Below the pieces are notes generated by a model. That model had not been told where the DNA came from. It saw nothing but the letters and a program-made list of their open reading frames with translations, and searched no databases. From positions 688,963 through 752,962 of the forward strand of contig NZ_QNRT01000001.1 of the NCBI RefSeq assembly GCF_003315245.1: 64,000 nucleotides of DNA, given 5' to 3'. This DNA comes from Arenicella xantha. Its GTDB lineage: Bacteria; Pseudomonadota; Gammaproteobacteria; Arenicellales; Arenicellaceae. This document shows positions 24,696 to 56,298 of this stretch, in pieces. The translations under genes were made by a program, and so were the position numbers. Numbering within the stretch: the first letter of the stretch is position 1; the number at the start of each line of letters is the position of its first letter.

Positions 24696-25121
24696 CTACT
24701 TTTTGTCTGGAATCGGTTCGGTCACCAAACTAACGGTTTCTACGCCCGCTTGTTTAAGCAACACCATCGCTTTAATTATGTCATCGTATATCGCTTGCTT
24801 AGCGCCACGTACTAAAAAATCAGTTTTGGGCTTTAGACTGTGCACTGCGCGAGCATAGCGCAATACTTCTTCAGAGCTTTTAGCTTGATCATCAATAAAC
24901 AGCTGACCACTCGCATCAACCGTCAAAATGACTGGCTCTGGTGCTTCAGAATTCGCCTCAACCGGACTCCCGTCGGTTTGTGGCAAATCAATTTTCACCC
25001 CTTCGGTAAGCAACGGTGCCGTGACCATGAAAATAATTAGCAACACCAACATCACATCAATGTATGGCACTACATTAATCTCGGCAATTGGCTTGCGTTT
25101 ACGGTCTCGATAGCTACTCAT
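24696..25121 (-). CDS. tolR: Tol-Pal system protein TolR
   Basis: Ion-channel and motor partner of TolQ. It has one membrane helix (about 20-38) with the proton-carrying Asp22 in VVPYIDVMLVLLIIFMV, then a periplasmic peptidoglycan-binding domain. At 141 residues it matches the family. This helix is the local reference for recognising the VWA proteins at 32.3-34.4 kb. Confidence 0.97.
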   Translation of the reverse strand: MSSYRDRKRKPIAEINVVPYIDVMLVLLIIFMVTAPLLTEGVKIDLPQTDGSPVEANSEAPEPVILTVDASGQLFIDDQAKSSEEVLRYARAVHSLKPKTDFLVRGAKQAIYDDIIKAMVLLKQAGVETVSLVTEPIPDKK

Positions 25122-25130
25122 AATTAGCGC

Positions 25131-25892
25131 CTAGTCTTTCTCTATCGCCAATTGGCGATTAACGATACTGATGAACTCTTCCATGAAGATCTCATACTGA
25201 CCGACCAATTTTTCAACATGATATGAAAAACGGTTGTAGGCAATAACCGCTGGAATCGCAGCAAATAAACCCATTGCTGTAGCAATCAGCGCTTCGGCAA
25301 TACCTGGTGCAACACTTGAGACGGTAGCCTGTTTAGTAGATAAACCGAGCGCTCTAAAAGAATTCATAATGCCCCATACCGTGCCAAATAAGCCGACGTA
25401 CGGGCTGGTGGAACCAACCGTCGCTAGAAAAGGTATCTGCGACTCCAAGTGATCAATCTCGCGACTAAGCTCGACTCGCATCGCACGCTGAACCGCGTCC
25501 AGCAAATCATTATTATTGGCATAACCACGCTCCGTAAGACGCTGATACTCTCGATACCCAGCAACAAAAATCTCGGACATGCCGGAAGCGCGCTTGGTCT
25601 CAGCGCCCCACTGATTGTAGAGCGACTGCATACTACCGCCGGACCAAAACTCGCGCTCAAACTGCTTAGTCAAACGACGTTCACGGCGCAACATCAAAAA
25701 CTTGGAAAAGATAATTGACCACGAGACCAATGATGCCAGAAACAGCATCAACATCACTAACTGCACAGTGAGGCTTGCCTCTAACATGAGCGACATGATC
25801 GACATATTATCTTGCATCGCCACTTCGACTACCGCAGTAGCAGCTTCACCATTAAGCGATTCAGGCTGTAAGCCTTGGTTTTCAATACCCAT
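25131..25892 (-). CDS. tolQ: Tol-Pal system protein TolQ
   Basis: Channel subunit of the TolQR proton-driven motor. It has three membrane helices. The conserved core is PYVGLFGTVWGIMNSFRALG, followed by VAPGIAEALIATAMGLFAAI. GAGGAAT precedes the ATG at 25892. The N-terminus is about 20 residues longer than in E. coli (253 against 230). Confidence 0.97.
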   Translation of the reverse strand: MGIENQGLQPESLNGEAATAVVEVAMQDNMSIMSLMLEASLTVQLVMLMLFLASLVSWSIIFSKFLMLRRERRLTKQFEREFWSGGSMQSLYNQWGAETKRASGMSEIFVAGYREYQRLTERGYANNNDLLDAVQRAMRVELSREIDHLESQIPFLATVGSTSPYVGLFGTVWGIMNSFRALGLSTKQATVSSVAPGIAEALIATAMGLFAAIPAVIAYNRFSYHVEKLVGQYEIFMEEFISIVNRQLAIEKD

Positions 25893-29519: not shown

Positions 29520-30944
29520 TCAATCCATGTCTATTTTGACTTTTCGTAGCTTCTTGATCCACGTGCCGGGCTCAGCTTCACCAGTCGGGTAGTAACCATT
29601 CAGCACGCGCAACTCCATTTCTGCAGTAGCCGCATTGAGCTTAGCGTCACGTGCCAGCGACTCAAACGTCTCACCTGGCTTGAGTCGTTCATAGTAGATC
29701 TCGGTGACATAATCGTCAGTGCGATCCTTAGCCGTCATCCGCCTAAATGACCTTATAATTTCGACAAATTCACGATCTTGCTCAGCGGTAATTTGATTAT
29801 TCTTAGCGATCCCTAGAAAGTGAAATGTATTTCGCGCAACCATAGCAAGTGCCACACGCTGCGCTGGGCGCGCGCCGATCATTCCTAAGTCTCGAGTCGC
29901 GTCCGGATGGATTTTTTGCAGGTCAACCAAATCGTCGGGGTACTTGGCTTTTATGGCTTCCTCACTCGTTACTTTTATGTCGAGTGTCGGCTCGATACTT
30001 ATCTTCAGCTGCGCGGTCTTTTGCGCATCTTTCAAAACAATTTTCGCCCCCTTAAGATCAAAGCTCCAGGTATCAGGGTATAAAAAAGTGATGTTGAGGT
30101 TCTCATTGCTATAGCGCTTATAACCTTTGGGCGCGGTTCGCCGGTAATTCGGCCCGTATACGATTCCAGAAACAGCCTCGCGATATTCATCTCGGCCGAC
30201 ATACCCTTCGCCCGGCGGCAAAACACCAGCGTCTTCAACAACCTTACGCAAACGTTGGTCAGTACGCGGATGGGTCGCGGCTAGACCATGATGTGATGGC
30301 GCTTGATTTGAGACTTGCGCAAAAAAAGTCCCAAAATCTGCCAATTGCGATAAAGCTCCAATCAGCTGACTCGGCTCGTAACCCGCGGCGTACAAGTATT
30401 TTGATGCAAAGGAGTCAGCCTCAAGCTCTGCAAGCCTGGAATATTTGAACCTATTGACATCGCTTTGCGCCATCATCGCGTCCCCTAAACTACTGTTGCC
30501 TACCAAAATACTGGCTACAGTCGCGAAAAATCGATTGCGCCGATCGCGAGCAACCGACTCTTTAACATGCCCCGCGATGTTGTGACCTAACTCATGCGCC
30601 ATTACGCCAGCAAGTTCGGCCTCAGAATTCAATACATTAAGTAAGCCGCGATTGATATACACGACCTCATAACCCGCTACTCGCGCATTAGGGATTGGAA
30701 TATCTTGAATAATGAAGGTGTAGTTTTTATCCGCCTGCTCGCTTTGTGCCAACACTCGGTTACCGACCTTAGTCACATATTCATTCAGTTCGGGATCATC
30801 ATACTCCGGGCCTTCAGCCATCAGAGCAAGGTGCCGCTTTAGGTCAATCCCTGCAGTTGGAACCGCGCCCCATAAATCACTTGTCAGCAAACTTAGAGCG
30901 ACCAGCAGCATCAGTTGCTTGAGCAGTAAACGGTTAGAATTCAT
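29520..30944 (-). CDS. M48 family periplasmic metalloprotease, BepA-like
   Basis: Exported zinc protease. A signal peptide ends near LWGA. HELGH (residues 117-121) gives two His ligands and the catalytic Glu, and ELEAD (about 173) the third ligand. The C-terminus (about 410-474) has a LysM-like module starting KPGETFESLARDAKLN. BepA/YfgC relatives degrade or assist outer-membrane proteins, but those have TPR tails, which this lacks. It is the last gene of the 13-gene envelope operon, 27 bp after a lipoprotein gene, so a role in maturing or clearing that machine is plausible but inferred. Confidence 0.87.
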   Translation of the reverse strand: MNSNRLLLKQLMLLVALSLLTSDLWGAVPTAGIDLKRHLALMAEGPEYDDPELNEYVTKVGNRVLAQSEQADKNYTFIIQDIPIPNARVAGYEVVYINRGLLNVLNSEAELAGVMAHELGHNIAGHVKESVARDRRNRFFATVASILVGNSSLGDAMMAQSDVNRFKYSRLAELEADSFASKYLYAAGYEPSQLIGALSQLADFGTFFAQVSNQAPSHHGLAATHPRTDQRLRKVVEDAGVLPPGEGYVGRDEYREAVSGIVYGPNYRRTAPKGYKRYSNENLNITFLYPDTWSFDLKGAKIVLKDAQKTAQLKISIEPTLDIKVTSEEAIKAKYPDDLVDLQKIHPDATRDLGMIGARPAQRVALAMVARNTFHFLGIAKNNQITAEQDREFVEIIRSFRRMTAKDRTDDYVTEIYYERLKPGETFESLARDAKLNAATAEMELRVLNGYYPTGEAEPGTWIKKLRKVKIDMD

Positions 30945-30971
30945 TAAAACGCTCCGGGCAATCAGCCAACA

Positions 30972-31670
30972 TTAGTTAGCTCTCATATTCAATTCAGTCT
31001 CATCTGTTTGAGAAAAGAACCGGACTAGTTGACTCCCCATCCCCTCGCAAGCATCTCCTTGAACTTGAGCCAAAAATGGAATCGGAATCACAAACGCCGG
31101 CATGTAAGACGTGCCAACGGCTTCAGTGCTAACTCGCCCCACCTCGGTGAAGCTCGCTATGTCCCAAATTGTAGTCTCGTAATCACTCGTATCTTCCCAA
31201 GTGCTAAACCCGAAGCAACCTCCACCACCAGGTCCGATTGAACAACTCATGCTGCCAGCCCCGTCAGTGCGCTCAGTCGAGCCTTCAACCCACACGAAAT
31301 AGCGGATTTTCATGGCTTCGATTTTTGCTGCAACTAACGGCTGGTCTAGCACCTGTTTTAACTTGGCGGGTCGCAATGGCGCAGTTCTGGCTTCAAACCA
31401 AGGATAAAATGCATCAACGAATTCAGGCTCACCGATAATTCTCACTCTGTCGGTGCCTCGAGCTAGCTTATTGCCAATACACGCAATTAGCGACGACTCA
31501 GTTTGAACCTCGGCTGTTTGGTGACGCCCTAACACTACCATTGCATCGCCTTGATTGAGCTCAACATTGTCTCGCAACCGTACCTGGTCGACATTAATTG
31601 TGGTACACGCTGATGCCAATACCGATAATAGCAATGCGCCACAAACACGAGGCAAACTTATTTGTATCAT
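30972..31670 (-). CDS. unknown lipoprotein
   Basis: 232-residue lipoprotein with lipobox LASAC (Cys22). The mature part includes a glycine-rich, Cys-containing loop (SMSCSIGPGGGGCFGFSTWE) and ends with Cys in QGDACEGMGS. I do not recognise a family. It overlaps the upstream lipoprotein gene by 4 bp (ATGA) and sits within the envelope operon, so it probably belongs to the same machine on the periplasmic or outer-membrane side. Confidence 0.8.
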   Translation of the reverse strand: MIQISLPRVCGALLLSVLASACTTINVDQVRLRDNVELNQGDAMVVLGRHQTAEVQTESSLIACIGNKLARGTDRVRIIGEPEFVDAFYPWFEARTAPLRPAKLKQVLDQPLVAAKIEAMKIRYFVWVEGSTERTDGAGSMSCSIGPGGGGCFGFSTWEDTSDYETTIWDIASFTEVGRVSTEAVGTSYMPAFVIPIPFLAQVQGDACEGMGSQLVRFFSQTDETELNMRAN

Positions 31671-32347
31671 TCTTCCACCTCTTCATCTTGTGCTTTGGTG
31701 TTGAGCTCAGCTTGCGACTGGGTTGCTAACTCAATACTTGAACTAGACTCTGCATTACGCTTCACTAGCGCCCTAATTCTAGCTTGACGAGCAAACCCAA
31801 TAGAAAGCTGAGCACCGACATCGCGCAATGCAATATTGGCCGCCGAACTAAAACCTGCCCCACTTGAACCCAGCATTGCAGTAGGCGTTTTTCCATACCC
31901 CTTAATAATCCAGTCCGCTATTTTTTGTTCATCAGCATCCACCAGCTTTATTCGATATTTGATCCAAATTTCATATTGGTTCAACTTAGTCTCACGCGGC
32001 GCAGTGTACTGCATATCTAAAATTTCGGGTTCAATTACCAGTTGACGATCTGGGCTATCAAGCGGAACCACAGTCATCAAACTGCCAAAAATCTGATTGA
32101 ACATCACCCTTTGCGCATCGGTGAAATCCAGCGTTTGTAAGGCACGCTTCTTCTCGGTTTCGGTATATCGGTAATTTTCAAAATCATCGGTGTACCTAAT
32201 CGCCCCAACGATTGGCAAACGTTCGATTAGGGGCGTCGGAATATTACTTTTAACTACTACGTTACTGGCGCAGCCGCTCAGCAACAAAGCCAACAACATC
32301 AGAAGATACCGCATTGAATTGAGTCGACTGTGGTGTTTATCTGACAT
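31667..32347 (-). CDS. unknown lipoprotein
   Basis: 226-residue lipoprotein with lipobox LLLSGC (Cys26). The mature domain contains a beta-rich stretch (DRQLVIEPEILDMQY, QYEIWIKYRIKLVDADE) reminiscent of envelope lipoproteins that measure or bind partner proteins. GYGKTPTAMLG looks like a loop and is not a full nucleotide-binding motif. The C-terminal tail is acidic and Ser/Gln-rich. It overlaps the VWA gene upstream by 11 bp and the next lipoprotein by 4 bp, so all three are coupled. Confidence 0.8.
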   Translation of the reverse strand: MSDKHHSRLNSMRYLLMLLALLLSGCASNVVVKSNIPTPLIERLPIVGAIRYTDDFENYRYTETEKKRALQTLDFTDAQRVMFNQIFGSLMTVVPLDSPDRQLVIEPEILDMQYTAPRETKLNQYEIWIKYRIKLVDADEQKIADWIIKGYGKTPTAMLGSSGAGFSSAANIALRDVGAQLSIGFARQARIRALVKRNAESSSSIELATQSQAELNTKAQDEEVEE

Positions 32348-33338
32348 TGCTATTCAAACCTATAAACGTTCCATTATTTTGTTCAGCCAACTGACGCATC
32401 AAATTCGCGTATCGCGTGGCAGAGCTATTCGGCCCCGTCGCAGAGTTAACTAACACCGGAAAACCAACTCCATGAATACGCACTAACGTCTCGCCCTGCG
32501 CATTCGCTTCATTGAGTTCTGCAACGGCTTTGACCACGCGCGCCACTGAACGCCCTTGGTAGTCATCGCCCATTACGTACAGACTTATTTTCTTATTCTT
32601 ATCAAAATGTTGCTTGATTGCACGCGTAATTCCGCCGACTGGCGTGGAGGCACTAAATGCCGACCAATCATTAAGCTTACGAATAATGTCGCGCCGCCGC
32701 GCTGGTGTGTCAGGCATGAAGCGGTCACGATATTGTGGAAACATATAGATGCCCTCATTATTCATAACCTGTATACCTTTCACTTTAGGATAGATCGTCA
32801 GTGTGCTTTGCACCTCACGCACCAACTTTGGCCAAGCCGACGTCTTCATACTGCCTGAGCTATCAATAATAAAAATAATGTACTCAGAATCAACTGGCAC
32901 GCCGGCCACGTATTCATTGAGCTTTTTGCGCCCTTTTAATAGACGCTGCATTTCTCGGCTAAGTGACTGCAATGCGATTTGCAAATCTTCAAGTTGGGAT
33001 GCGTCATCGGCACCGTTATCGTCCACACTGGCTTGACGCGAATTCAACACGTCGAATTCACTACGCAAAATAGCGACTCGACGCTGATCTTTACCAAGCT
33101 GCTGCTGTTTAGCATTCAACTCGGTTTCTAAATAAGCCACCTGCCCACGAATCTCAAAGAGCCGCTCCTGTAGCGCCCGCACCAGCCCTTTGTCTTGAAT
33201 GATCGACTCCTCCAGCACTGTTGGCTGACTAGGCTTAACAATAACCAGCAGCAGAATGATGGCACCAAAACCACAACAAATAATATCGAGAAATGAAATG
33301 TTCGCATCTTCGCTGCGACGGCGGACTCGACGACTCAT
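32337..33338 (-). CDS. VWA protein with TolR/ExbD-like membrane helix (paralogue 2)
   Basis: About 333 residues from the ATG at 33338, which overlaps the upstream stop as ATGA. An earlier in-frame start at 33395 lies inside the neighbour. After a basic N-terminus (MSRRVRRRSEDAN) comes one helix with Asp18 in ISFLDIICCGFGAIILLLVI. A Gln/Arg-rich coiled coil (about 45-110) follows, then a VWA domain with MIDAS DSSGSM and a conserved metal-site Asp in YVMGDDYQG. The helix layout and Asp match TolR Asp22 of this window. I infer a stator-like subunit of an ion-driven complex with the MotA/TolQ-like protein at 35.7 kb. Confidence 0.85.
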   Translation of the reverse strand: MSRRVRRRSEDANISFLDIICCGFGAIILLLVIVKPSQPTVLEESIIQDKGLVRALQERLFEIRGQVAYLETELNAKQQQLGKDQRRVAILRSEFDVLNSRQASVDDNGADDASQLEDLQIALQSLSREMQRLLKGRKKLNEYVAGVPVDSEYIIFIIDSSGSMKTSAWPKLVREVQSTLTIYPKVKGIQVMNNEGIYMFPQYRDRFMPDTPARRRDIIRKLNDWSAFSASTPVGGITRAIKQHFDKNKKISLYVMGDDYQGRSVARVVKAVAELNEANAQGETLVRIHGVGFPVLVNSATGPNSSATRYANLMRQLAEQNNGTFIGLNSNVR

Positions 33339-34411
33339 GGCCAATCCCTCGCAGGGGTCACAAAAGAGCCCCGAGAACGAACAGCCAAACGCCAAAATGC
33401 CGCGGCTGCGTAAGGATCACCTTCCAAGGGTAGTAAAAAGGTGTTCACAGAAACGTCTTCTAGTATCCGAACAGCATCACTAAAAACACGTAGTCGCTGA
33501 TACCCTGTAATGCTCCCGCTAGTGGGCGCATTACCGCCTTGGGTCGGAAGGCCGTCGGTGATCAAAAAGATATTATCCGGTCGTGGCTGCATAGCCATAG
33601 CAGCCTCAAACACTCGATGCATATTGGTGCCATTTTCAGGCACGACTGAGTTCATACCTTGCACCGCCGAGGCGATGGAGAGACGGTCCGCTACTTGATA
33701 CCAAGAATTAATTTCATCGCCAAATACCGCACTCACATCCTCATTGAAGGTCAATACTTGAAAGTCACTCGACAACGGCAAGTTAGCCACAATCCATTGC
33801 GTAATATCCAAGGTTCGCCCCCACTTCTGCGAGCGTAGCTTCATCTCTTTACTCATGTTTCGACGACGCAATATGTTCACAATGCTCTCATCCAACATGC
33901 TCGCCGAGGCATCGACTAGAATCAGAACCTTCTCACCGCCTAAGCGGACTCCGGTAAGATATTGCCGCTCACCATCGCCAGTGAACTGATACGCTTTATT
34001 GCCTGCTGGAATTTCATTTTCGAGGGCTTGTTTTTGCCGTTCTAGCTTAGCAATTTGCTTTTTTAAGCCCGGCACATCCACCGCCGAGTCAGGCTGAATC
34101 TCCTCTAGTAGACTCTTCAACTGATTGATGTCGTCCTCAATTTTGCGTGCTAGACCTTGCGCGACTACCGATTCATCACTGACATCACTAATTGTGTTGC
34201 GAATACGTGCCAAGTTCGCTTCACCTTGCAAGATCTCCTCCTCCAAGAGGTTAAGCTCTGACATCAACTGCGGCTCTAGTGTATTCACCGGCGCATCTGT
34301 GACGTGCTTTAGCAATAAAAAAATAAGCACCGCAGCACCTAAGCCACAGGACATAATATCCAAAAAAGACAGGCTGAATGTTGAGGTGTTGCGGATTCTT
34401 TTGCGCGCCAT
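33335..34411 (-). CDS. VWA protein with TolR/ExbD-like membrane helix (paralogue 1)
   Basis: 358 residues. The basic N-terminus MARKRIRNTS leads into one helix with Asp18 in FSLSFLDIMSCGLGAAVLIF. A coiled coil (about 50-140) follows, then a VWA domain with MIDAS DASASM, Thr in NGTNMHR and Asp in FLITDGLP. It is a distant paralogue of the next gene, with the Asp at the same residue number and a shared SFLDI-x-x-CG-x-GA pattern. The VWA domain faces the periplasm if the helix orients like TolR. Two unequal paralogues suggest a heteromeric pair inside a TolQ-like ring. Confidence 0.85.
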   Translation of the reverse strand: MARKRIRNTSTFSLSFLDIMSCGLGAAVLIFLLLKHVTDAPVNTLEPQLMSELNLLEEEILQGEANLARIRNTISDVSDESVVAQGLARKIEDDINQLKSLLEEIQPDSAVDVPGLKKQIAKLERQKQALENEIPAGNKAYQFTGDGERQYLTGVRLGGEKVLILVDASASMLDESIVNILRRRNMSKEMKLRSQKWGRTLDITQWIVANLPLSSDFQVLTFNEDVSAVFGDEINSWYQVADRLSIASAVQGMNSVVPENGTNMHRVFEAAMAMQPRPDNIFLITDGLPTQGGNAPTSGSITGYQRLRVFSDAVRILEDVSVNTFLLPLEGDPYAAAAFWRLAVRSRGSFVTPARDWP

Positions 34412-34430
34412 ATTATTCAGTCAAACCGGT

Positions 34431-35720
34431 CTAAATCACTCTAATCACAGTGAGCACTCCGTCTGCCACGTGCGACGCTAGACGATCGTTAGGACGCAAA
34501 CTCTGACGTGCTTCATCATTCAAAATAAAAATCTTGCCGTTGCTAATAAGTCGCTTTAGATTCGGCTCACCTTGGCTCACCACAAGACTATTCGAAGTTG
34601 CCGCGATATGGGCCTGCTCGATTGCAATTGCGGTGCCCGCAAACAGCACATGAGTAGCCGCATTGGGGCTCGTCTCAGCACTTACGTTGCGGCTTGGCGC
34701 TGAGCGCGAAACCTCCAGCGTCGAAGCACCGGACGGCTGATTAGCAATCGGTAGCGTGGTGATATAGCGAGCCACATCGGTATCCACTAATTCAGACAAC
34801 ACTGCTGGAGCTGGATCTGGCGACCCAATTACCGCTAGTCTTGACTTGGACAACTGCGTTGGAACAACTCCATCGAATAGCGCATTTAAATCAATGTAAA
34901 CATCAGCAAAAGCACGTTCTTGACTCCGCTCAACAACACGCTCAAAAAACGGGGCAAGTAGGTCATGCCAATCTTTCGCCTCAATACTAATACTGTGCAA
35001 CTGCGCATGATGCTGGACGGTAACCTTAGCCTTACCAAACTCCTCAATTTGTTTGGCCACATCGGCGAGTTGATCAAATAGCTGCTGCTCGGAACTCGCA
35101 TCATGTAGCGGATCAAAACGATCACTTTGTATAAAGCGTGACTGCAAGCCTTTAAGTAAGGCTTCTTGCATCAAATGTATCCCGACATCTTGCAAAACAT
35201 CAAATTCAATGAGCGATACTTGGCCATCTTGACATCGTAGTCTTGAGAGCACCGTTTGATGTAATTGGAGATCAATATGCAGATACTCACCGTGCTTCGA
35301 CGCCAGCCCCGCCGCGGCTAAGACCGCTTTATTAACGAGTCCTGATACATTTAGACCGCACGACTCAGCAATCCCCAACAGCAACTGCAGATTAGCATCA
35401 CGATAATGCGGGGGCACGGATACCACCAAAGTCTCAAGTTGATGAGTCCCACGCAGCTCGGTCAAGTGGCTCCAAATAAGGTCACCTGCATGGCGCATAC
35501 CAGCCTGGTTAGCGGGGATTGCACTTTGATCACACTGCAACCAGTAGCGCTGATTGATTTCTTGCGGCGCGAGCCGACAATGAGCGATTGGGCGCAAACT
35601 CGAGTCAGAATCAAACACTACTGAATCGCCTTTCAACCAGGCGTAACCCGGCCCAGCCTGAACCACTGAATCAGTCTGAAGCAAAATATTATTATCGTTA
35701 ATATGCAGAATTGTGTGCAT
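34431..35720 (-). CDS. Hsp70/actin-fold ATPase-like protein
   Basis: 429 residues with no signal peptide, so cytoplasmic. The region about 60-330 follows the Hsp70/actin plan: ETLVVSVPPHYRDANLQLLL resembles the segment before the second lobe, and a helix-strand pair is seen in GLVNKAVLAAAGLA. The phosphate loop expected as a Gly-rich DIGGGT motif is degenerate here (HIDLQLHQTVLSRL), so ATP hydrolysis is doubtful. The C-terminal 100 residues are unassigned. It sits between the channel subunit and the VWA genes, suggesting a cytoplasmic regulator or assembly factor. Confidence 0.65.
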   Translation of the reverse strand: MHTILHINDNNILLQTDSVVQAGPGYAWLKGDSVVFDSDSSLRPIAHCRLAPQEINQRYWLQCDQSAIPANQAGMRHAGDLIWSHLTELRGTHQLETLVVSVPPHYRDANLQLLLGIAESCGLNVSGLVNKAVLAAAGLASKHGEYLHIDLQLHQTVLSRLRCQDGQVSLIEFDVLQDVGIHLMQEALLKGLQSRFIQSDRFDPLHDASSEQQLFDQLADVAKQIEEFGKAKVTVQHHAQLHSISIEAKDWHDLLAPFFERVVERSQERAFADVYIDLNALFDGVVPTQLSKSRLAVIGSPDPAPAVLSELVDTDVARYITTLPIANQPSGASTLEVSRSAPSRNVSAETSPNAATHVLFAGTAIAIEQAHIAATSNSLVVSQGEPNLKRLISNGKIFILNDEARQSLRPNDRLASHVADGVLTVIRVI

Positions 35721-35749
35721 GCTTATTTATCTTGGGCCTCGGTCGTAGG

Positions 35750-36568
35750 TTAGCTTTGTAGGTGCCTGATCAAACTATGGTCACAATGGTCTTGAGTCTC
35801 CATCACCATACGCTCCTGCATTAGCGTAAGCTGATGAGTTAAAAACATAATCACAATGCTAATAAGCAAGGCGACGAACGTAGAGTTAAACGCCACGCCC
35901 AAACTCGCCGTCACCGCAGCAATATTGCCGGCAACCGCTTCATGAGCGTTCCCGAGCGCAGTTCCGATGCCGCGCACCGTGCCAATAAAGCCGATCGACG
36001 GAATCGCCCAAGTAATGTACCGCACCATCGACAATTCAGAATCCAAGCGATCCGCCTCGGTATCACAAATGTCTCGCACCACAGTCGAAACATCGGCAAC
36101 GGAGGCGGTTGATCCGTATCGATTCAAGGCTGCCCTCAGTGCTCTCGGTAATAAAAATTTTCGTTCCGGTAGTGGCAACGCTTCCAGCGGCCTAGACAAC
36201 TTACGCGCATCCTCAGGCAGTACACGTCGCCCCTCTTCAATACTAATTAAGGATTGGTTTAATAATCGTCGCTGCGCTACCACGGCTTGCGCTTTCAAGC
36301 CCATAATCGCCATAACCCAAAGCATCAGAATGAAACATGTTTCCTGCTCGTAGTCTTTCAGCACAACCCATGCCGACCGCTCGATCTTAGCTATTTCTCC
36401 GGACTCAGTTTGTGCCGCGATGGCCTGCCTTTCAGCCTCCAAAACCGCATCAGCATTTGGCCTAACCAAGCCCACATAAATTGTGTGCACAACCACAAAC
36501 GAGAGGACTAATGCCACAACTTGATAAAAGAACTCAGATTTTTGAAGCTTCATATTGATTGATTTCAC
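35750..36568 (-). CDS. MotA/TolQ/ExbB-family channel subunit
   Basis: Up to 272 residues. The listed start is GTG; the ATG at 36553 (MKLQKSEFF) is equally possible. Membrane segments lie at about 14-35, 76-98, 183-205 and 220-245. The diagnostic core AIPSIGFIGTVRGIGTALG, then AAVTASLGVAFNSTFVALLI, aligns with TolQ of this window (YVGLFGTVWGI, IAEALIATAMGLF). Such proteins form pentamers around two copies of a TolR/ExbD/MotB-type helix. None of those partners is adjacent, but the two VWA proteins downstream carry a matching helix. This is the key subunit linking the operon to ion-motive force. Confidence 0.9.
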   Translation of the reverse strand: MKSINMKLQKSEFFYQVVALVLSFVVVHTIYVGLVRPNADAVLEAERQAIAAQTESGEIAKIERSAWVVLKDYEQETCFILMLWVMAIMGLKAQAVVAQRRLLNQSLISIEEGRRVLPEDARKLSRPLEALPLPERKFLLPRALRAALNRYGSTASVADVSTVVRDICDTEADRLDSELSMVRYITWAIPSIGFIGTVRGIGTALGNAHEAVAGNIAAVTASLGVAFNSTFVALLISIVIMFLTHQLTLMQERMVMETQDHCDHSLIRHLQS

Positions 36569-36590
36569 TATTATTATTGGTTCATCTCAG

Positions 36591-36872
36591 TCAAATATCG
36601 ACCGGGAATGGTACGGGCAGATCTTCGGAAATTTCTTCAGAGGGAATAAAGTCCTCATCGTTTTGTCGCGATGCGTCTCGTGCCTGCTGCTTGGCTTTTT
36701 TTATCGACGCTGGGTCTGCAGGTATCTCTATACGTTGCTCTTGATCTTCCACGCCCTCAGCGACCGGATTATCGCTGGCTTGCACCTGTGCCCTACTTGT
36801 TTCTGGCGAGGCTAGTAAAACACAGCCCGCTAACAGTAAAACCATTGCAAAATTATTTATCGCCACTCGCAT
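36591..36872 (-). CDS. small exported acidic protein
   Basis: About 93 residues from the ATG at 36872, 1 bp after the upstream stop. A longer frame from 36950 lies within the neighbouring gene. The hydrophobic N-terminus ends ASPETSRAQ, a good signal peptidase I site. The mature part is short, charged and probably unstructured (ASIKKAKQQARDASRQ, then an acidic tail). I recognise no family. Its place before the channel subunit suggests an accessory of the complex. Confidence 0.65.
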   Translation of the reverse strand: MRVAINNFAMVLLLAGCVLLASPETSRAQVQASDNPVAEGVEDQEQRIEIPADPASIKKAKQQARDASRQNDEDFIPSEEISEDLPVPFPVDI

Positions 36873-36873
36873 A

Positions 36874-38991
36874 CTAGTTACTCTTATTAAGCCCAGCGTA
36901 ACGGGCAACACGGAAGCCAACATCAAACTTGCCTTTAGCGCCATAGTCACGATACGCCAAACGAAGCTGGGGTAGATAGCCTTTGGCCCAGCTGGCTCCG
37001 CGAATCACATGGAACTCGCCAATACTTGGTCCCAATGGGTCTTTAAGAATGGCGCTGCCGAGCTCAGTATTACCTCTAGCCGAATACCAATCATTTACCC
37101 ACTCGGCAGCGTTGCCCGCCAAGTCATGCAAACCACGATGATTTTCAGGGAATCGGCCGACCGGACTTGGCCCGCGATAGCCATCATCATAATCAGCCAA
37201 GGTAAAAGCCAATAATTCGGCCGCTTTTTGATCTGCAAAATTGGCTACTTTTGTAGCTGGCGTGTTGCTCGCCCCCCATGGATACACTAACAAACCATCA
37301 CTCTTGTTGCGTGCTAGCCATGCCCATTCAACCTCGGTCAAAAGTCGATATCCATTCGCTGCGGGATTAAGCCCTGAAACATATCCAGACACGGTTTGAT
37401 AAAATGGATCAAACCCCTCTAGTTCGCTTAACCAATTACAATATAGCGCCGCTTCTTGCCAGCTAATATTAACTGCGGGAGCTTTGTTAGCATCTAGGCT
37501 CTTGCCTTTGTAGTTCCCCGAATTATGGGTTTTCTTGAATGCTCTAAACTGCTTGTTAGTGGTTTCATGCACAGCCACATAGAATGGCTTGGTTAATTCG
37601 GCCTGGTATTCGACCTCATTCGAGCGACGCCCATTTTCTCGTCGTGACGAGCCCATCTTGACCAAGCCCAAGGTTTTAAACAATTTCATTTGATGGCCGA
37701 CTCGATTGGTATATTCGGCCGGAACTTGAGCCCAATAGTGCTGTTCTTCAGTCAACAGGTTAATACTAATAAGCTGCTGATTCGTTCGGGTTGGAACCAC
37801 CTCTAGAGTTTGCGAACGGTAGCCAGGCTTACGCACGCTAATTGTGTGCGGCAATGTGTTTAACGCAAGAGTCTGAGACCCACTGCCGCGTACTGCCCCA
37901 TCAACCAACACGGTGGCATCGGCCGGCGAAACACTTAATCGAACATTGATAATATCCGGCTCCAGCGCCACGTTAGACACTTGCTTTTGATTTGGTTCGA
38001 GCAGCAACACTTGATCTGCCAGCTTAAAACCGGCCTTGTACACTTTGACTGATTGCTCTGCATGCGGTCGCACGCTGAGGCTTAATGGCGTAACACCTTT
38101 GAACTGCTGATTTAATACCACCGCAGCCCCAGTTGGCTCGCTGCTTAACTCCAGTATGCCGTCAGCCGGCTCCAGGCTAATAGTGGGGATCACCAAGCCT
38201 TGCTCCGCCACCACAGCTATAGTTTGTGAAAACGGTTTATATTTCGCGGCCTCAATTACCAGCTCATGGGTCCCTTCTTCTAGCTTGGTAGCAATCGGTG
38301 TCTCACCAAGCAATTCACCATCAACAATAACCGCTGCGCCAGATGGCTCGGAGGTGAAAGAATATTCAGCCCAGGCAGGCACTAATGCCATAGAGAGCGT
38401 TTGAGTTTCGCCCTTACCGCGCACAAGAATACTCTGAGTCGAGGGTCTGAATAATGGTGCATCCACGGTGATTTGTCGTTTGCCAGCGGGGATACCAGTG
38501 ATTACCCCAGGTATCGACCCAGCCAGCTCGCCGTCCACCAACACCTTAGCTTCGAGCTGCTCGGGCAATACTATTTCGAGCGCGCCAGGGAGTCTCTGTA
38601 GAACCAATTCGAATTGTTGATGCCGTTGCTCGGACACGTCTATGGACTGCGATACTGGCGCATAGCCATCGGCAGACACAGCCACTTGATAGGTGCCCGG
38701 CAGCACCAGCATTCGATTACCCAATGGCAACTTAATATATGCGCTGATCGAGATGTTTGCCGCCACACGGTTGAATTTTTCAGGACTATTTAACGAGGCC
38801 GAGATTGCACGTAACTCAATACTTTTGGCCAAAGAGATGAAGGTAATAAACAGCAAACTAAAAAATCCGATAACGATTAATGCCCAGTGTGTACCTGTCA
38901 TCTTAAACCTTGCTCGCGACGTCTCCCCCGTAGGCGCTTGAAAATCAACCGGCGCAATAATGCGATTTTCAGATGTATCTAACTTTGTCAT
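36874..38991 (-). CDS. membrane-anchored PEGA-repeat protein with SUMF1/FGE-like domain
   Basis: 705 residues. It has a short cytoplasmic N-terminus, one helix (about 33-55), about five PEGA-like beta repeats (about 75-420) recognised by VLVDGELAGSIPG, VIVDGELLGETPI and VLVDGAVRGSG, and a C-terminal SUMF1-type domain (about 430-700). The SUMF1 part has WQEAALYCNWLSELEG, LHDLAGNAAEWVNDWY, RGASW and VGFRVAR. The paired catalytic Cys of true formylglycine-generating enzymes are absent around RGASWAKGYLPQLRLAYRD, so a binding rather than oxidising role is likely. PEGA domains often bind envelope surfaces. It is coupled to the next gene in the operon. Confidence 0.87.
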   Translation of the reverse strand: MTKLDTSENRIIAPVDFQAPTGETSRARFKMTGTHWALIVIGFFSLLFITFISLAKSIELRAISASLNSPEKFNRVAANISISAYIKLPLGNRMLVLPGTYQVAVSADGYAPVSQSIDVSEQRHQQFELVLQRLPGALEIVLPEQLEAKVLVDGELAGSIPGVITGIPAGKRQITVDAPLFRPSTQSILVRGKGETQTLSMALVPAWAEYSFTSEPSGAAVIVDGELLGETPIATKLEEGTHELVIEAAKYKPFSQTIAVVAEQGLVIPTISLEPADGILELSSEPTGAAVVLNQQFKGVTPLSLSVRPHAEQSVKVYKAGFKLADQVLLLEPNQKQVSNVALEPDIINVRLSVSPADATVLVDGAVRGSGSQTLALNTLPHTISVRKPGYRSQTLEVVPTRTNQQLISINLLTEEQHYWAQVPAEYTNRVGHQMKLFKTLGLVKMGSSRRENGRRSNEVEYQAELTKPFYVAVHETTNKQFRAFKKTHNSGNYKGKSLDANKAPAVNISWQEAALYCNWLSELEGFDPFYQTVSGYVSGLNPAANGYRLLTEVEWAWLARNKSDGLLVYPWGASNTPATKVANFADQKAAELLAFTLADYDDGYRGPSPVGRFPENHRGLHDLAGNAAEWVNDWYSARGNTELGSAILKDPLGPSIGEFHVIRGASWAKGYLPQLRLAYRDYGAKGKFDVGFRVARYAGLNKSN

Positions 38992-38992
38992 A

Positions 38993-40636
38993 TTAACGTT
39001 GCGCTTGTTTACTCTCAGCGGAGGTTACATTGCCGACTATCGGCTGCGTACATACAATAGATATCTTGATGATGTCATCACCACCGGCATGCAACTCCAG
39101 CTCACGACGCACATCATGAAACCCCAAACGTTCGCCGGAGACCAAATACCGACCAGGCTTTAATGCTAGATTCTTTTGCGTAAATCGACCAAGCACTAGC
39201 GGCTTGGAGCCATCTCGAACCAGCGTAACCGACGTCGCTGAATCCGACGTCAACGCAACCTTTAAGTTGGTGTCGATGCGTTGAAACGCAGACTCTATTT
39301 GCGTAATTTGAGCAAGCAAGCTCGGCCCCGGTGATCGTATCGCTTTGGCATCAGCCAAGACCGTTTCCGCGTGTCGACGTTGCGCCTCGCGAGCCAGAGC
39401 GAGTTGATCACTTAAAACACTTTCTATTTCAGCTTGCAGTTGCGCACGAGCACTTGCTCGGATTTTCCCTAATTTAGCCGTGATTTGATTGGGGTCACGC
39501 TGCAGAACAACTTGATAATTTGATAATGCACTGCGCCATTGCTCGTTAGCTTCAAGCTGTTTCGCCGAACTTAACAGAGCACTCAGTGATGAGCGCTTAT
39601 CGGATGCTAATGATTGCCGATAAGCAGCAGCGGCAGTCGGGTCATTTGGGCGTATTGTCAACGCTGACGAAAAAGCGTTTTTCGCGGCCGTATACTGAGC
39701 CGCAAACAATGAGTTGAAACCCGCAGTCATGGCATCACGGTAACGCTTATCAACAATATCTTGCTTCACTCGGTCCAAACCAACCAGTGCCGGCTCGTAA
39801 GCGGCATCAAGCGCGAGCGCCTCTTCATATCTAGACTGCGCTTGCAGCGCCGTAGTCAACTCATCATTGTGTTTGAATCGCTCTTCCACATCCTTAGCTT
39901 GACTTACGATTAGCAAGACTTGATCGAGTGTCTTTGCTCGGTCTAGACCTTTAAGGGCCTCAATGTTATTTCGTTCGAGCCTCAGTGCTTGCTCAAATAG
40001 ACCACGAGCCAAGTCTGTTTTGCCGAGGCTAATCGCGTCCTCACCGGCGGCTAATTTTGCGTCTAATACTTCGGGGACCAATCCAAGCAAAGCCTCCAAA
40101 CTCGAACGTGAAGTTTGATACGCTTGGATCGCCTCCGCAAATTGTTGCCGCTTATAGAACTCATCTCCCGACGTAGCGCTGCCTAACGCACTCGAAAAGC
40201 GGTCGTCCGCCCATTCCCTAACATCTTTACTTTCTAAGTTTTTTTTAAGCGTTAATACATCGGCTAAAATATCTTGCGCATCGGCTCGAGCCTCAGCTCC
40301 TTGGCTCTCGTCCCATGGTGCGACGACGTCAATGACAGCTTGTTCAACTTGACTCGTTCCATCCAGCTGAACAAGCTTACTCACTTTAGCTTGAGTTGAC
40401 TCCGGCGTTGGCGTCAGCATTACAAACAGAACAGCGGCAACGGCTAGCAAGCCAAATGCCGCCAACATAAGGTTAAACTCAGAATGCCACCATCGCGAAG
40501 TCACGCGTAACTCGATACCCGAACCTTTGCCTTCCAAGCCTTCGCGTGGTTTACTCAAAAGTTCGCCCGGCGCGGAATACGCAGCAGGTTTAATGGCAGT
40601 GCCAAGCTTGACCGAATCGGTATCTAAATCATTCAT
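38993..40636 (-). CDS. membrane-anchored TPR-like protein with PEGA-like C-terminus
   Basis: 547 residues. A cytoplasmic N-terminal tail (about 1-52) precedes one helix (about 54-73, LMLAAFGLLAVAAVLFVML) and a long periplasmic helical region of TPR-like repeats (about 110-420). Repeats include GKTDLARGLFEQALRLERNN, YTAAKNAFSSALTIRPND and WRSALSNYQVVLQRDPNQ. The end (about 450-530) resembles one PEGA repeat (LALKPGRYLVSGERLGFHDV). The design parallels the PEGA-SUMF1 protein encoded next: tail, helix, large periplasmic scaffold. The stop lies 1 bp before that gene. Confidence 0.82.
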   Translation of the reverse strand: MNDLDTDSVKLGTAIKPAAYSAPGELLSKPREGLEGKGSGIELRVTSRWWHSEFNLMLAAFGLLAVAAVLFVMLTPTPESTQAKVSKLVQLDGTSQVEQAVIDVVAPWDESQGAEARADAQDILADVLTLKKNLESKDVREWADDRFSSALGSATSGDEFYKRQQFAEAIQAYQTSRSSLEALLGLVPEVLDAKLAAGEDAISLGKTDLARGLFEQALRLERNNIEALKGLDRAKTLDQVLLIVSQAKDVEERFKHNDELTTALQAQSRYEEALALDAAYEPALVGLDRVKQDIVDKRYRDAMTAGFNSLFAAQYTAAKNAFSSALTIRPNDPTAAAAYRQSLASDKRSSLSALLSSAKQLEANEQWRSALSNYQVVLQRDPNQITAKLGKIRASARAQLQAEIESVLSDQLALAREAQRRHAETVLADAKAIRSPGPSLLAQITQIESAFQRIDTNLKVALTSDSATSVTLVRDGSKPLVLGRFTQKNLALKPGRYLVSGERLGFHDVRRELELHAGGDDIIKISIVCTQPIVGNVTSAESKQAQR

Positions 40637-40671
40637 ATGTCACGCTGCGATGATCACCTATCGCCGATTTA

Positions 40672-41949
40672 CTAGTCATCCTCTTGGTTAACGCCGGAAG
40701 CATCATTTACAGTCTCTGAAAGCGCCCCCTCTTCAAGGATGAACATTTCCCCTAAAATGCGTCGCCACTCACCAAATTGATCCTCGACGGTACCAGTGAG
40801 CGTCACGCTTCGGTCCTGAAGGTCGACAATGCTCGGCGCCAGTTGCGACTCTAGCGACTCGCCCAGCTCGCGTAACGCATCACTATGAGACAAGGCCTCA
40901 TCAGACTTTAAAAGACTCAATCTAAACAAATTTGCACCGGCAAAAATCCCCATGTGACCGGCAAACCTGGTAGTACCCCGATCACCTTCAACCGCAGCCA
41001 AAACGCCACCGGCAATCGCTAAAACGCTCGCCGCCTTTTGCTTGCGCGCTTGCGCATCCAGTTGCCGAGCATACAAAACTTGCTTGTAGCTTAACTTACG
41101 CCACTCTTGGTATGGACCCTCCATCTGACGGTTAAAGGTGCGGTAGTAGTCTTGAATGACATCCACAAACAAGTCATTGCGAGCTCTGACCCTTTCGACT
41201 CGTTGCATCATTGGGTCCGAATTAGCCGGAACACGCAACAACGAAATACGACCGTCATCGGTCTCAGCCAAATATTCACTGAAAGCATCAGGCACAAAAT
41301 CACGCGCAAACAGGACTTTAGTGATAGTTCGAATTTGACGTAATTCATCCGCTGACAATGACGCCTGATAATTAAACAACGCGTTGGCTATTTCACTAAA
41401 AGTAGCTTGAAAGGGATCGCCAGGAAGGTCAATTTCAGGATGATAAGCGTAGGAACTAGCTTGCTGCTCAAATGCTTGATCCAACCAAACACGCCCGCTA
41501 CTGTCTTCTGCCTTGACCTTGATTTTAACAAACTCGCCGTTCGACTCGATCAGTTTGCCTGTGACAATAACGTCCATCGGCAAAGTCCGCTTTGGTAGTG
41601 CTCTAACGATGCCCCACGCATTACTCTGCTCGAGAGTCTCCTTTAACTGAGAAGTAAACCATACCGATTCACTCTGCCGGACACTGGAATACGCTAAGTC
41701 ATCAGCATCAAGATCGACCTCACCCGGATGAAATAGAACAATGCCTACATCTAACAAAGTTGATTCATCAATAAGTTGCTCTTGCGCTTCATCGACGCGA
41801 GCTATTTTGACCGACTTAGTTTCATGATACTCGAACGTTGAACAAGCACTCGCCAGCAAAGCAACAAAGATGCCGCACAGCAGCTTTCCAACAACCGAAC
41901 TCATGTTTGTATTTGATTGCCACATCGCTAGCTCAAGCATATCGTTCAA
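40672..41949 (-). CDS. unknown lipoprotein
   Basis: Lipoprotein with lipobox LLASAC. The start is uncertain: TTG at 41949, ATG at 41940 or ATG at 41904 are all in frame, and only the first two follow an AGAGG. The mature region has an alpha/beta part (DVGIVLFHPGEVDLD, VWFTSQLKETLEQSNAWGIV) that loosely recalls CsgG/FlgO-type envelope lipoproteins. A helical middle (RKQKAASVLAIAGGVLAAVE) and an acidic C-terminus follow. It may anchor the complex to the outer membrane; that is inference from lipidation and operon context. Confidence 0.75.
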   Translation of the reverse strand: MNDMLELAMWQSNTNMSSVVGKLLCGIFVALLASACSTFEYHETKSVKIARVDEAQEQLIDESTLLDVGIVLFHPGEVDLDADDLAYSSVRQSESVWFTSQLKETLEQSNAWGIVRALPKRTLPMDVIVTGKLIESNGEFVKIKVKAEDSSGRVWLDQAFEQQASSYAYHPEIDLPGDPFQATFSEIANALFNYQASLSADELRQIRTITKVLFARDFVPDAFSEYLAETDDGRISLLRVPANSDPMMQRVERVRARNDLFVDVIQDYYRTFNRQMEGPYQEWRKLSYKQVLYARQLDAQARKQKAASVLAIAGGVLAAVEGDRGTTRFAGHMGIFAGANLFRLSLLKSDEALSHSDALRELGESLESQLAPSIVDLQDRSVTLTGTVEDQFGEWRRILGEMFILEEGALSETVNDASGVNQEDD

Positions 41950-41956
41950 CCGACCT

Positions 41957-42961
41957 CTAGTTACTCTTGTAATTGTAATACTCTTCCCAGAGCTTCTTCT
42001 TTAATTCTGGGTCGGTTTCTTGTTCAGCGGCTTCGCGGATCTGGCGCGCAACAATATCGTCATTTTTGCGTAAATCAGACTGCCTATCGTCAAGCTTATC
42101 AGCGTCATCGCCTGACTCGGCTTGTTGCGGGTCTTGGCCGCTCGATGTTGACTCGGTGCTGCCGGTTTCAGACGACTCACCGCCAGCGCTCGAATCACTA
42201 GCCGTCGCATTGCCTTGTTGGTTTGAACTAGATGAAGCCGAAGGCGCTGGTGACTTTTTAGATGATTTGGACTCGCGCGACTCATCGTACTCCTCGAATT
42301 CGCCTACCCCGCCAAGTTGATCATCAGTGTTTTCGTTTGCGCGATCTTCGGCATATTGCTTTTCTCTCGCAATTTCTTCATCGAAGTCACCTAACGTTTC
42401 TTCCAACTCCTTTTCTAGCTCCTCGAGCTCTTGTTCACTGAGACCACCACGACTATCAAACTCTGGCTCCTCGAACTCACCGGCGGCAATCGGCTCAGGC
42501 TCGTCAAAGGTAACACCATCGGTTACTGTTGGCTCGGCTTCATCGCCGTCCGCCTCGTCGCTTTCCCATTCATCCGGTGGCTCGGCACCCTGAGTACCAT
42601 TGCTAGCGCCTTGCTGCTCTGACTCTGCGTCAGAACCCGGCTCTCCAGCCTCCCCTTTTGCGCCTTCTGTGTCACCGCCCTCTGAAGATTGGGATGGCGA
42701 AGACGGCTGGCCCGGCAGCGACGGAGGTTGTGGCAACGACGGAGGTTGTGGCAGCGACGGAGGTTGTGGCAACGATGGAGCAGATGGGGAACCCGCCCCT
42801 CCTCCGCCAGCAGTCGGAGGCAATGGCAGCGAGGGACCACTCGGGCCGCCGGCCCCACCACCACTATTGATCGGCTTAGCGCATGCAGCTACTAACAATA
42901 CAAGCGATACGCTGACGCATAACCGCGCTACCTTGGTGTGTGAAACGAAACATTTATTCAT
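41957..42961 (-). CDS. Pro/Gly/Glu-rich low-complexity lipoprotein
   Basis: 334 residues with lipobox LLVAAC (Cys27). The mature part is almost entirely low complexity. There is a Gly/Pro/Ser stretch with SLPQPP hexapeptide repeats encoded by an 18-bp tandem repeat, then acidic Glu/Asp/Ser/Gly-rich segments. The last 35 residues (DDIVARQIREAAEQETDPEL, then KKKLWEEYYNYKSN) are helical and look like the conserved functional tip. A tethered, extended chain with a binding end would suit spanning the periplasm. Plus-strand open frames here are artefacts of base composition. Confidence 0.8.
   Translation of the reverse strand: MNKCFVSHTKVARLCVSVSLVLLVAACAKPINSGGGAGGPSGPSLPLPPTAGGGGAGSPSAPSLPQPPSLPQPPSLPQPPSLPGQPSSPSQSSEGGDTEGAKGEAGEPGSDAESEQQGASNGTQGAEPPDEWESDEADGDEAEPTVTDGVTFDEPEPIAAGEFEEPEFDSRGGLSEQELEELEKELEETLGDFDEEIAREKQYAEDRANENTDDQLGGVGEFEEYDESRESKSSKKSPAPSASSSSNQQGNATASDSSAGGESSETGSTESTSSGQDPQQAESGDDADKLDDRQSDLRKNDDIVARQIREAAEQETDPELKKKLWEEYYNYKSN
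42714..42780. repeat. 18-bp tandem repeat inside lipoprotein gene
   Basis: Three full copies of an 18-bp unit (GGCARCGACGGAGGTTGT on the plus strand; 42714-42731, 42732-42749, 42750-42767) plus a partial copy. They encode SLPQPP repeats in the minus-strand lipoprotein. Copy number could vary in frame between strains. Confidence 0.9.
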
Positions 42962-42993
42962 TAGTCAAACACTCTCATCTGCATGGATTTAAA

Positions 42994-44481
42994 TCAGCCC
43001 TTTTCCGATTTGCTACGTGGGGCCCGCACCTTAATATTACGTGACAACTCGTCACTAGCAATCATATGACCACGATCTATTAGCGGTCGATATCGTAAGC
43101 GCTTAACGGCTCTCTTGGCGCGCTTGATCAGGTCTGGATAAGGATGCGCCTCTTCAATTTCGCCGAAACTGCGCACACGTCCGAACTTCCCAAGCTTAAA
43201 CTTCAGCGGCACCAAAACCGTCGGAAACCGGTCTTCAACCGGCGGCCTAGTGCGGGAATAATAAAAATCTGGCAGCAGTATTGGATTCTGAAAACTTGCA
43301 AAGAGCTGGTGGCTAACTGGCAGCTCTTGAGCCGATTCCCATGCTGACTGATAGTACAACGCGGCACTATCACGATGACTATATAACAGGCTTAAGTCAC
43401 CTAAATTTATCAGCGCCTTCACTGCGTGCTCTGTCGCTCCCTCAGCATTGGCCTTTTCTAAGTACCTTAGTAAATATCGCTCGGCATTTGCAAAGCCGTT
43501 GGGTACGGAAATAATTTTCTTCTGTGGAAAATCAAGCTTTCGCTCCTGCCATTCAGCCGGCAACCTATATCGCTCGGTCGCGGTGTCTACTTTAATCGTA
43601 CTCCTCAAAAAATACACTAAAGCCAATTCACCGTAAGGCATTACATAACGATTGAGCGGCTCTTTCTCATACTTTTTTATTGCGTACTTAAGATACTTTT
43701 CTGCTTGCTCAAGATACATTAATCCAGCTTCACCGGCATTGGGGCGATATTCAAAACGATTAATAAATTCGTTACCCAACCTTACCACCATGTCAAACGC
43801 TAGGGCATCCCTTTCCTGCTCTGACTGGCCTTCAAGCCAAATAATTCGATTAATACTGTCTTGTGCTGCCTCTAGATTCCCTTTTGCAGACGCCAGCTCA
43901 AACATCGCACCGAGAATCGGGCGCTGCTCCAGACTGTTAACACCATGATTGATTTTGCTAAGGTGTAACGCATTCGCGAACATCTTACGCGCCTCGTCAA
44001 GTCTACCCGCGCTCATCAAGGCTTGACCGTAACTTAGATAAGCCTCGCCAAGGTTGGCACTAAAAGCATCTTCACTATCTTGCAACTCGAGAATTCGTTT
44101 AAATAGGATCTCAAGGTTCAGACTTACCTCAGGGGTCAAATCGACTATTGGCTTGGAAGGAACATTTTTTTCGCGAGTAGGTAGATCAACACTTGGCGAA
44201 TTGTCTTTGTCGCCATCAACCGTTGAGTCCACACCTAGTTGACTGGCAAGTGGCGGCTCCGTCTCTGGCTCTGGCTCTGGTCGCTCGATTTCGCCGTCAA
44301 CAGCATTAGTTTGCGACTCTGAAGCATCAATCGTCCATGCGCCTTGTACTTGCTGAGCAAATACCGGCCGGATAACACTAGCGATAGAAATTAACAGCAC
44401 GCCAAAACAAAGCCGGCGTGTCGCGCGACTGACCGCAAGCCGACATAACAATAAGTCCGCATTCTCGATTTTTCTGATCAT
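42994..44481 (-). CDS. exported TPR protein with TonB-like C-terminal domain
   Basis: About 495 residues from the ATG at 44481, preceded by AGGAG. A frame extending to 44580 lacks a ribosome site. A signal peptide ends near RPVFAQ. A Pro/Glu-rich stretch (ERPEPEPETEPPL) is followed by TPR repeats (about 110-390), such as LGEAYLSYGQALMSAGRLDEA. The end (about 410-490) resembles a TonB C-terminal domain: FPTVLVPLKFKLGKFGRVRS, then KRAVKRLRYRPLID. It is the first gene of the 13-gene operon and may carry motion or contact to the outer membrane, as TonB and TolA do. Confidence 0.8.
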   Translation of the reverse strand: MIRKIENADLLLCRLAVSRATRRLCFGVLLISIASVIRPVFAQQVQGAWTIDASESQTNAVDGEIERPEPEPETEPPLASQLGVDSTVDGDKDNSPSVDLPTREKNVPSKPIVDLTPEVSLNLEILFKRILELQDSEDAFSANLGEAYLSYGQALMSAGRLDEARKMFANALHLSKINHGVNSLEQRPILGAMFELASAKGNLEAAQDSINRIIWLEGQSEQERDALAFDMVVRLGNEFINRFEYRPNAGEAGLMYLEQAEKYLKYAIKKYEKEPLNRYVMPYGELALVYFLRSTIKVDTATERYRLPAEWQERKLDFPQKKIISVPNGFANAERYLLRYLEKANAEGATEHAVKALINLGDLSLLYSHRDSAALYYQSAWESAQELPVSHQLFASFQNPILLPDFYYSRTRPPVEDRFPTVLVPLKFKLGKFGRVRSFGEIEEAHPYPDLIKRAKRAVKRLRYRPLIDRGHMIASDELSRNIKVRAPRSKSEKG

Positions 44482-44770
44482 GGTCTCCTGTAATCTATAG
44501 CTTGAATCTTTTACCCAAGGTTGTCTAACATTAATAATGACCGCGTATTCGCAAGAATTAGCACGCCGATTTCTCAACATCAGATTTTAATAGTGGAAAA
44601 ACAAAACCCTTACTCGGTTTATTCTATCTAATGACTCGGTACTAAATACGGTAACTGACTTACGGTGAGCTAAATGTCAGCACAGCTTATACTGATAAAT
44701 GTTTCGATACAGCGTATTGAGCACTATAGCTAAGTTTGTAAGTAAAACTGATTTTTCAGCCATTTGTGAA

Positions 44771-56246: not shown

Positions 56247-56298
56247 GAAATTACCCTTTGCCAAAATTTAGGCAGGCCTGATTGGATAATCACTTGTC

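Follow-up and report, generated by a model that had tools for sequence, protein, structure and literature searches.

We analysed a 64,000-nucleotide stretch of the Arenicella xantha genome, hereafter the window, in which 13 open reading frames (ORFs), all on the minus strand, fill positions 29520-44580 and encode the parts of a candidate envelope machine with a MotA/TolQ/ExbB-type channel subunit. The letters A to M were assigned to the 13 genes in transcription order. The original prediction had described thirteen tightly packed minus-strand genes at 29520..44481, and all 13 ORFs were recovered from the ORF listing of the window, with intergenic gaps of 1-35 bp or overlaps; the end of that span and its gene set stand, whereas the first ORF, that of gene A, opens at 44580, and 44481 is an alternative in-frame ATG. 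The overlap between E and F (-77) becomes a gap of about 1 bp if F starts at the in-frame ATG 36872, and that between I and J (-61) becomes -4 bp if J starts at the in-frame ATG 33338. The genes are listed below, where core marks those shared with a compact form of the set and extended form marks those found beyond it.

42994..44580, minus strand: A, exported TPR protein with a TonB-C-like end, in the extended form only (TPR; TonB_C in relatives; hydrophobic N-terminal stretch)
41957..42961, minus strand: B (core), Pro/Glu-rich, probably disordered lipoprotein with a conserved C-terminal motif (motif and lipobox-like counts, alignment)
40672..41949, minus strand: C (core), putative lipoprotein with a TolB-N/PelC/CsgG-like domain (fold matches of the model)
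38993..40636, minus strand: D (core), cytosolic tail, one transmembrane (TM) helix, TPR region and PEGA-like end, the last unconfirmed
36874..38991, minus strand: E (core), cytosolic tail, one TM helix, about five PEGA domains and a SUMF1/GldK-like head
36591..36950, minus strand: F, small exported protein with a conserved extreme C-terminus, likely start ATG 36872
35750..36568, minus strand: G (core), MotA/TolQ/ExbB-type channel subunit (Pfam, conserved motifs)
34431..35720, minus strand: H (extended form), cytosolic protein with an Hsp70-nucleotide-domain fold and an FHA-like end
33335..34411, minus strand: I (core), VWA protein 1 (VWA1), with an Asp-bearing N-terminal TM helix, a coiled coil and a VWA domain
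32337..33395, minus strand: J (core), VWA protein 2, built as I, likely start ATG 33338
31667..32347, minus strand: K (extended form), lipoprotein, possibly related to C (lipobox-like site, hhalign)
30972..31670, minus strand: L (extended form), lipoprotein with a conserved Cys beyond the lipobox (lipobox-like site, alignment)
29520..30944, minus strand: M (extended form), exported M48 metalloprotease (Pfam, HExxH)

We found that these genes recur as a set. Scanning one genome per species with the alignment of G gave at least 593 confirmed stretches, and the best 80 of them were used for locus comparison. Using 13 gene profiles, we observed the exact order A-B-C-D-E-F-G-H-I-J-K-L-M in 28 of these 80 loci, and 31 loci contain every one of the 13 genes. 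The predicted co-occurrence is borne out, with no scattering of the genes, and identical genes in identical order at 28 loci go beyond chance. In most of the other loci contig ends cut the set, or M or end genes are missing from the stretch. The hosts of the extended form include Microbulbifer, Exilibacterium, Porticoccus, Marinibactrum, Aestuariicella, Pseudomaricurvus and Thalassomonas, and VWA1 was matched in 41 of the 61 genomes of the window's order. The surroundings vary, with the commonest unassigned neighbour family reaching 11 of the 80 loci, and since the flanks differ between loci we regard the 13 genes as a self-contained extended form. Upon examining 13 more distant loci, we observe B-C-D-E-G-I-J in order, without A, H, K, L and M, in 11, the other two being contig ends; F had no profile match in the distant compact loci.

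Because taking the best 80 of at least 593 stretches biases the comparison toward the best matches, class and phylum samples were drawn in addition, and stretches from 28 genomes of the class and five of a family outside it were fetched. In the class sample, VWA1 was matched at E<=0.001 in 53 of 370 genomes, 32 of them strongly (E below 1e-40) and the remainder through weak partial matches. All 28 strong genomes outside the window's genus were fetched, and their stretches, several of which are short contigs, contain G in 27 cases, J in 25, E in 22, D in 18 and H in 14, with neighbours of the set kept at 28 of 28 loci. The phylum sample of 397 genomes gave 12 with a VWA1 match; nine of these belong to a single family outside the class (f211, including G445, G458, G464, G523 and G587), and the seven-gene core B-C-D-E-G-I-J was in order at all five loci fetched from these nine genomes. 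The system occurs in a compact architecture, the seven-gene core, and in an extended one, the 13-gene set. A single genome of the window's genus (G004) holds both forms, at loci L038 and L039. Rearrangements were also seen: in L079, L084 and L090, K and L are found between A and B on the opposite strand, not behind J, as is K alone in L121, and G sits behind J, not before H/I, in two of the 28 class-sample loci (L135 and L138).

Next, we investigated the predicted motor genes. G matches Pfam MotA_ExbB, as the original prediction had it, with an E-value of 6.2e-14 (52.3 bits against a cut-off of 22.9). Of 120 rows, 119 carry the motif GTVxGI and 114 carry FNST, while P190, T197 and T230 are invariant in 18 aligned rows, and profile comparison aligns the conserved stretch of G to the GTVxGI of TolQ. 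Ring subunits of this family have conserved functional Thr and Pro residues in their pore-lining helices, which the invariant residues of G match. I and J are TM-VWA proteins, again as predicted: I matches Pfam VWA_2 just under the cut-off (2.7e-5), J matches VWA weakly (E 0.073), and in each an N-terminal TM helix is followed by a coiled coil and then the VWA domain. Both helices carry Phe-Leu-Asp, with the Asp near the cytosolic end of the helix and invariant in 20/20 aligned rows of I and 19/19 of J; in a wider set that includes partial ORFs, the Asp helix is present in 113 of 118 rows for I and in 102 of 108 for J. The window's own TolR carries an Asp in the matching frame. A DxSxS of the metal-ion-dependent adhesion site type was observed in 112/118 I rows and 108/108 J rows.

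I and J are homologous (hhalign 99.7%) and form reciprocal clades with support 100/100 in a tree of 43 loci chosen from 105 with both genes. That they are kept apart as clades across the compact and extended forms points to an obligate heterodimer. The set has two different TM-VWA genes beside its TolQ-like gene and no tolR/exbD gene. It had been claimed to lack a classical TolR/ExbD/MotB; this part of the prediction falls, as I and J each bear an Asp-carrying N-terminal helix and the function is not missing, and the best reading of these sequences is that I and J together fill the place of TolR/ExbD/MotB in the motor.

We then characterized the larger membrane proteins and H. D had been described as TM-TPR-PEGA; the TM helix and the TPR region hold, the latter by Pfam below the curated cut-offs, whereas PEGA was matched by Pfam in none of 17 members, the end being PEGA-like by eye. 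An N-terminal protein-kinase domain scoring above the Pfam cut-off is present in the D proteins of one clade (L079:5245-7341, L084:5215-7617 and L121:5252-7573), and by eye the kinase in L084 and L121 is partly degenerate at its catalytic motifs. E was correctly predicted as TM-PEGA-SUMF1, with one TM helix and Pfam matches to PEGA in five stretches and to SUMF1. In the PDB set, the match of its head to PorK/GldK (8.1e-27) is almost as good as that to formylglycine-generating enzyme (FGE; 6.4e-30). None of the 105 rows with an intact end has two Cys in its last 75 residues, and none of 97 parsed rows has a Cys in the aligned stretch; a sulfatase-activating role of E is ruled out because E is without the FGE cysteine pair.

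The predicted Hsp70/actin-like nature of H agrees with its AlphaFold2 model, which has the Hsp70 nucleotide-binding-domain fold followed, after residue 355, by about 75 residues of beta structure in place of the substrate domain. FHA matches were obtained at the C-terminal end of H in relatives, clearly in two loci, and no glycine-rich phosphate loop was visible by eye in 18 aligned rows. A docking-type motif in the cytosolic tail of E follows the presence of H: its loose pattern was found in 61 of 66 rows with H versus 0 of 11 without in a first set, and in 7 of 11 versus 0 of 7 in a second. Six unreadable rows with H and three without were dropped from the first set, as were three of unknown H status, all of which bear the motif; in the second, 4 of 28 were unreadable and 6 of 28 were without E. 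On the G tree, in which L039 and the TolQ outgroup were flagged for long branches, the H-less label forces at least four changes. We infer from this covariation that H docks on the cytosolic tail of E.

The remaining proteins are predicted envelope parts. A was predicted to join TPRs to a TonB-like C-terminus; Pfam detects the TPRs below the curated cut-offs, while TonB_C is weak in the window (E 0.062) but reaches E<=0.01 in 7 of 15 relatives, and residues 57-75 form a hydrophobic N-terminal stretch. B shows its C-terminal motif in 87 of 96 rows and a lipobox-like site, by a heuristic, in 68 of 96. In C, a TolB-N/PelC/CsgG-like alpha/beta domain is followed by a 74-residue helix, a Gly-rich helical hairpin and a small beta end; structure comparison matches the model to PelC, TolB, CsgG and FlgT, and C is a putative outer-membrane lipoprotein. 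No useful PDB sequence match was obtained for C or L. F carries a C-terminal motif in 78/98 rows, and lipobox-like sites were found in 69/73 rows of K and 61/69 of L. K is possibly related to C, to which hhalign matches it at 82.9% over 135 columns; a similar relation of L to C was rejected (51%, over 36 columns only). M is the M48 protease that was predicted (Pfam 2.2e-25), with HExxH in 50/50 rows.

Taken together, it is probable that the 13 genes build a trans-envelope machine driven by ion flow, comprising a G ring, an I-J rotor, struts and outer-membrane lipoproteins. The claim of an ion-driven, VWA-containing envelope machine therefore remains the best reading of the gene content, once its statements on a missing TolR and on the lack of any named system are corrected. 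In this model G would form a ring-shaped channel in the inner membrane, within which one I and one J would make a two-stranded inner partner, presumably at a 5:2 ratio. Ion uptake and release by the Asp in the two N-terminal helices would turn the I-J pair inside the ring; the coiled coils would transmit this movement to the periplasm, and the VWA heads would hand it on. D and E may serve as inner-membrane struts whose TPR and PEGA/SUMF1 parts extend toward the outer membrane, where C would be the receiver; B, and F where present, would be disordered tethers whose ends serve for docking. H, in the extended form, would dock from the cytosol on the E tail, and A, K, L and M would supply outer-membrane parts and a protease. 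The output would most probably be mechanical, exerted at the outer membrane to assemble, export or tether something.

Several observations weigh against parts of this model. The G profile matches TolQ/MotA in the PDB weakly (E 0.26-0.32), and the third helix of G lies below the hydropathy threshold used. Most fold matches of C span residues 42-201 only, and none was obtained beyond residue 201. Regarding the E tail, four of the 11 H-bearing loci of the second set are without the motif, the pattern was loosened after the first set was seen, and the strict pattern is found in 44 of 73 rows with H versus 2 of 17 without, both of these being contig-cut loci. A motif in the D tail like that of E was also considered (strict pattern 4/67 with H and 0/17 without; loose pattern 38/60 versus 2/8); the loose pattern is hardly above shuffles, and because these reach 28% and 21% we make no claim for it.

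We also examined what surrounds the operon in the window. TolQ (Pfam 3.9e-39) and TolR are encoded at 24696-25892, a few kb downstream of A-M, so that two motors of the MotA/TolQ family are encoded close together. By their sequence, we take the flanking genes to be murB and aspS before A-M and yebC-ruvC-ruvA behind. The nearest named relatives for G belong to Arenicella. Elsewhere in the window, a minus-strand ORF of 1285 aa at 52407-56264 lies upstream of tldD/pmbA-like genes and adjoins an RNase E/G gene.

Among the possible outputs we rank export or assembly first, tethering or reshaping second and signalling third. The first, which we hold with somewhat less than even confidence, likens the operon to the motor of the type IX secretion system (T9SS), where GldL-GldM drives a SUMF1-fold GldK ring; at the outer membrane, the motor would power the transit or positioning of proteins or polymers. 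It is favoured by the PorK/GldK match of the E head, by the resemblance of C to the ring-forming export lipoproteins CsgG and PelC, and by the M48 protease, but E scores below the GldK/PorK equivalog (NCBIfam 77.1 bits versus a cut-off of 350), neither an outer-membrane barrel nor a cargo was identified, and no clear recurrent cargo gene stands beside the 80 best loci, given the size of the largest neighbour family. A Tol-Pal-like role, which is rather unlikely, would have the motor pull the outer-membrane lipoproteins B, C, K and L to hold the outer membrane to the cell wall or to reshape it. The TolQ/ExbB-type channel, the lipoproteins, the TonB-C-like end of A in relatives and the likeness of C to the TolB N-terminal domain, among others, agree with this; however, the operon cannot replace Tol-Pal here, as TolQ and TolR are encoded next door, Pfam reported no Pal/OmpA-type cell-wall-binding domain in the scanned genes, and the set is confined to a minority of the class, as the 32 strong genomes among 370 indicate.

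It is improbable that the operon is a sensor, with the VWA pair gating G and reporting the envelope state to H without mechanical output. H is of cytosolic type and tracks the E-tail motif, and the kinase domain of D in one clade and the clear FHA in H at two loci suit signalling, but both domains are rare, and the compact form keeps G, I, J and the struts without H. We give very little credence to a loose cluster of unrelated envelope genes joined by chance or shared regulation: promoter- and terminator-like sites at A-M scanned no better than shuffle level and are uninformative, but the order is kept in 28 of 80 loci and the seven-gene core in distant loci amid other surroundings. A Zorya defence island was rejected, with ZorA at 12.4 bits versus 500 (NCBIfam), far below the cut-off, and no defence partner above E 1e-4 among ten proteins scanned (PADLOC). 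A mobile element was likewise rejected, VWA1 having no plasmid match in 72,556 records, with phage records not searched. Returning to the trans-envelope machine, a more specific and tentative proposal is that an ion-driven motor with a heterodimeric VWA rotor drives an inner-membrane PEGA/SUMF1 cage against a ring of TolB-N/CsgG-like outer-membrane lipoproteins, exporting or assembling surface material T9SS-style, with a degenerate Hsp70-FHA protein as cytosolic control docking on the E tail; this would be an undescribed class of trans-envelope machine, present in Gammaproteobacteria and in a further proteobacterial family.

Few systems are known to use 5:2 ion motors, namely the flagellum, Ton, Tol-Pal, T9SS and Zorya, and if the model is true a whole machine would be added to them. 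B-C-D-E-G-I-J would be the minimal set for reconstitution, and the extended form is present in cultivable marine hosts (Microbulbifer, Exilibacterium, Marinibactrum, Thalassomonas and others). An I-J heterodimer in the G ring, a contact between the E tail and H, and the location of C at the outer membrane are directly testable predictions.

Finally, we compared the operon with known systems. With Tol-Pal and Ton (TolQR, ExbBD) it shares a MotA_ExbB channel and an Asp-bearing partner helix; however, its partner would be a heterodimer with VWA heads, whereas in Tol-Pal it is TolR with a periplasmic domain, the window's TolR lies elsewhere, and no TolA/TolB/Pal-type genes were recognised in the set. 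As in T9SS (GldKLMN), a channel-type motor adjoins a SUMF1-fold protein, but the TM helix of E would hold it in the inner membrane, E also has PEGA arms, and VWA replaces GldM. Zorya ZorAB has the MotA-type subunit in common, with very weak ZorA matches (E 0.055 and 0.021), while the partner in the operon has VWA. H shares the nucleotide-binding-domain fold of Hsp70/DnaK but has an FHA-like end instead of the substrate domain, and E shares with FGE the SUMF1 head but not the active-site cysteine pair. The closest counterpart is the TPH-vWA motor of Williams-Jones et al. 2025, who describe in Proteobacteria a TolQ-like gene with a heterologous vWA gene pair and no tolR/exbD, a conserved Asp in the N-terminal vWA helix, an example locus from Idiomarina, and AlphaFold3 models with two vWA helices inside a TolQ-like pentamer, without assigning a function (PMC12204202). 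The operon shares the TolQ-like gene, the heterologous vWA pair, the Asp helix and the absence of tolR/exbD, and G-I-J, judged by the description given there, is almost surely the predicted motor core. Section 8 of that paper describes none of the other operon genes, and the terms sumf1, pega, hsp70, dnak, m48 and formylglycine have 0 occurrences in its main text. The claim that no named system has this composition holds for the whole operon, as no description of the 13-gene set was found in the literature searched, which held no preprints and few subscription papers, but not for its motor core. The present analysis adds the compact and extended sets, the link between H and the E tail and the fold of C, and the vWA motor core predicted in 2025 (PMC12204202) would thereby gain its likely partners. 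The motor core is of a known kind; what is new within the literature searched is the full gene set with its compact and extended forms, the folds assigned to its proteins and the connection of H with the E tail.

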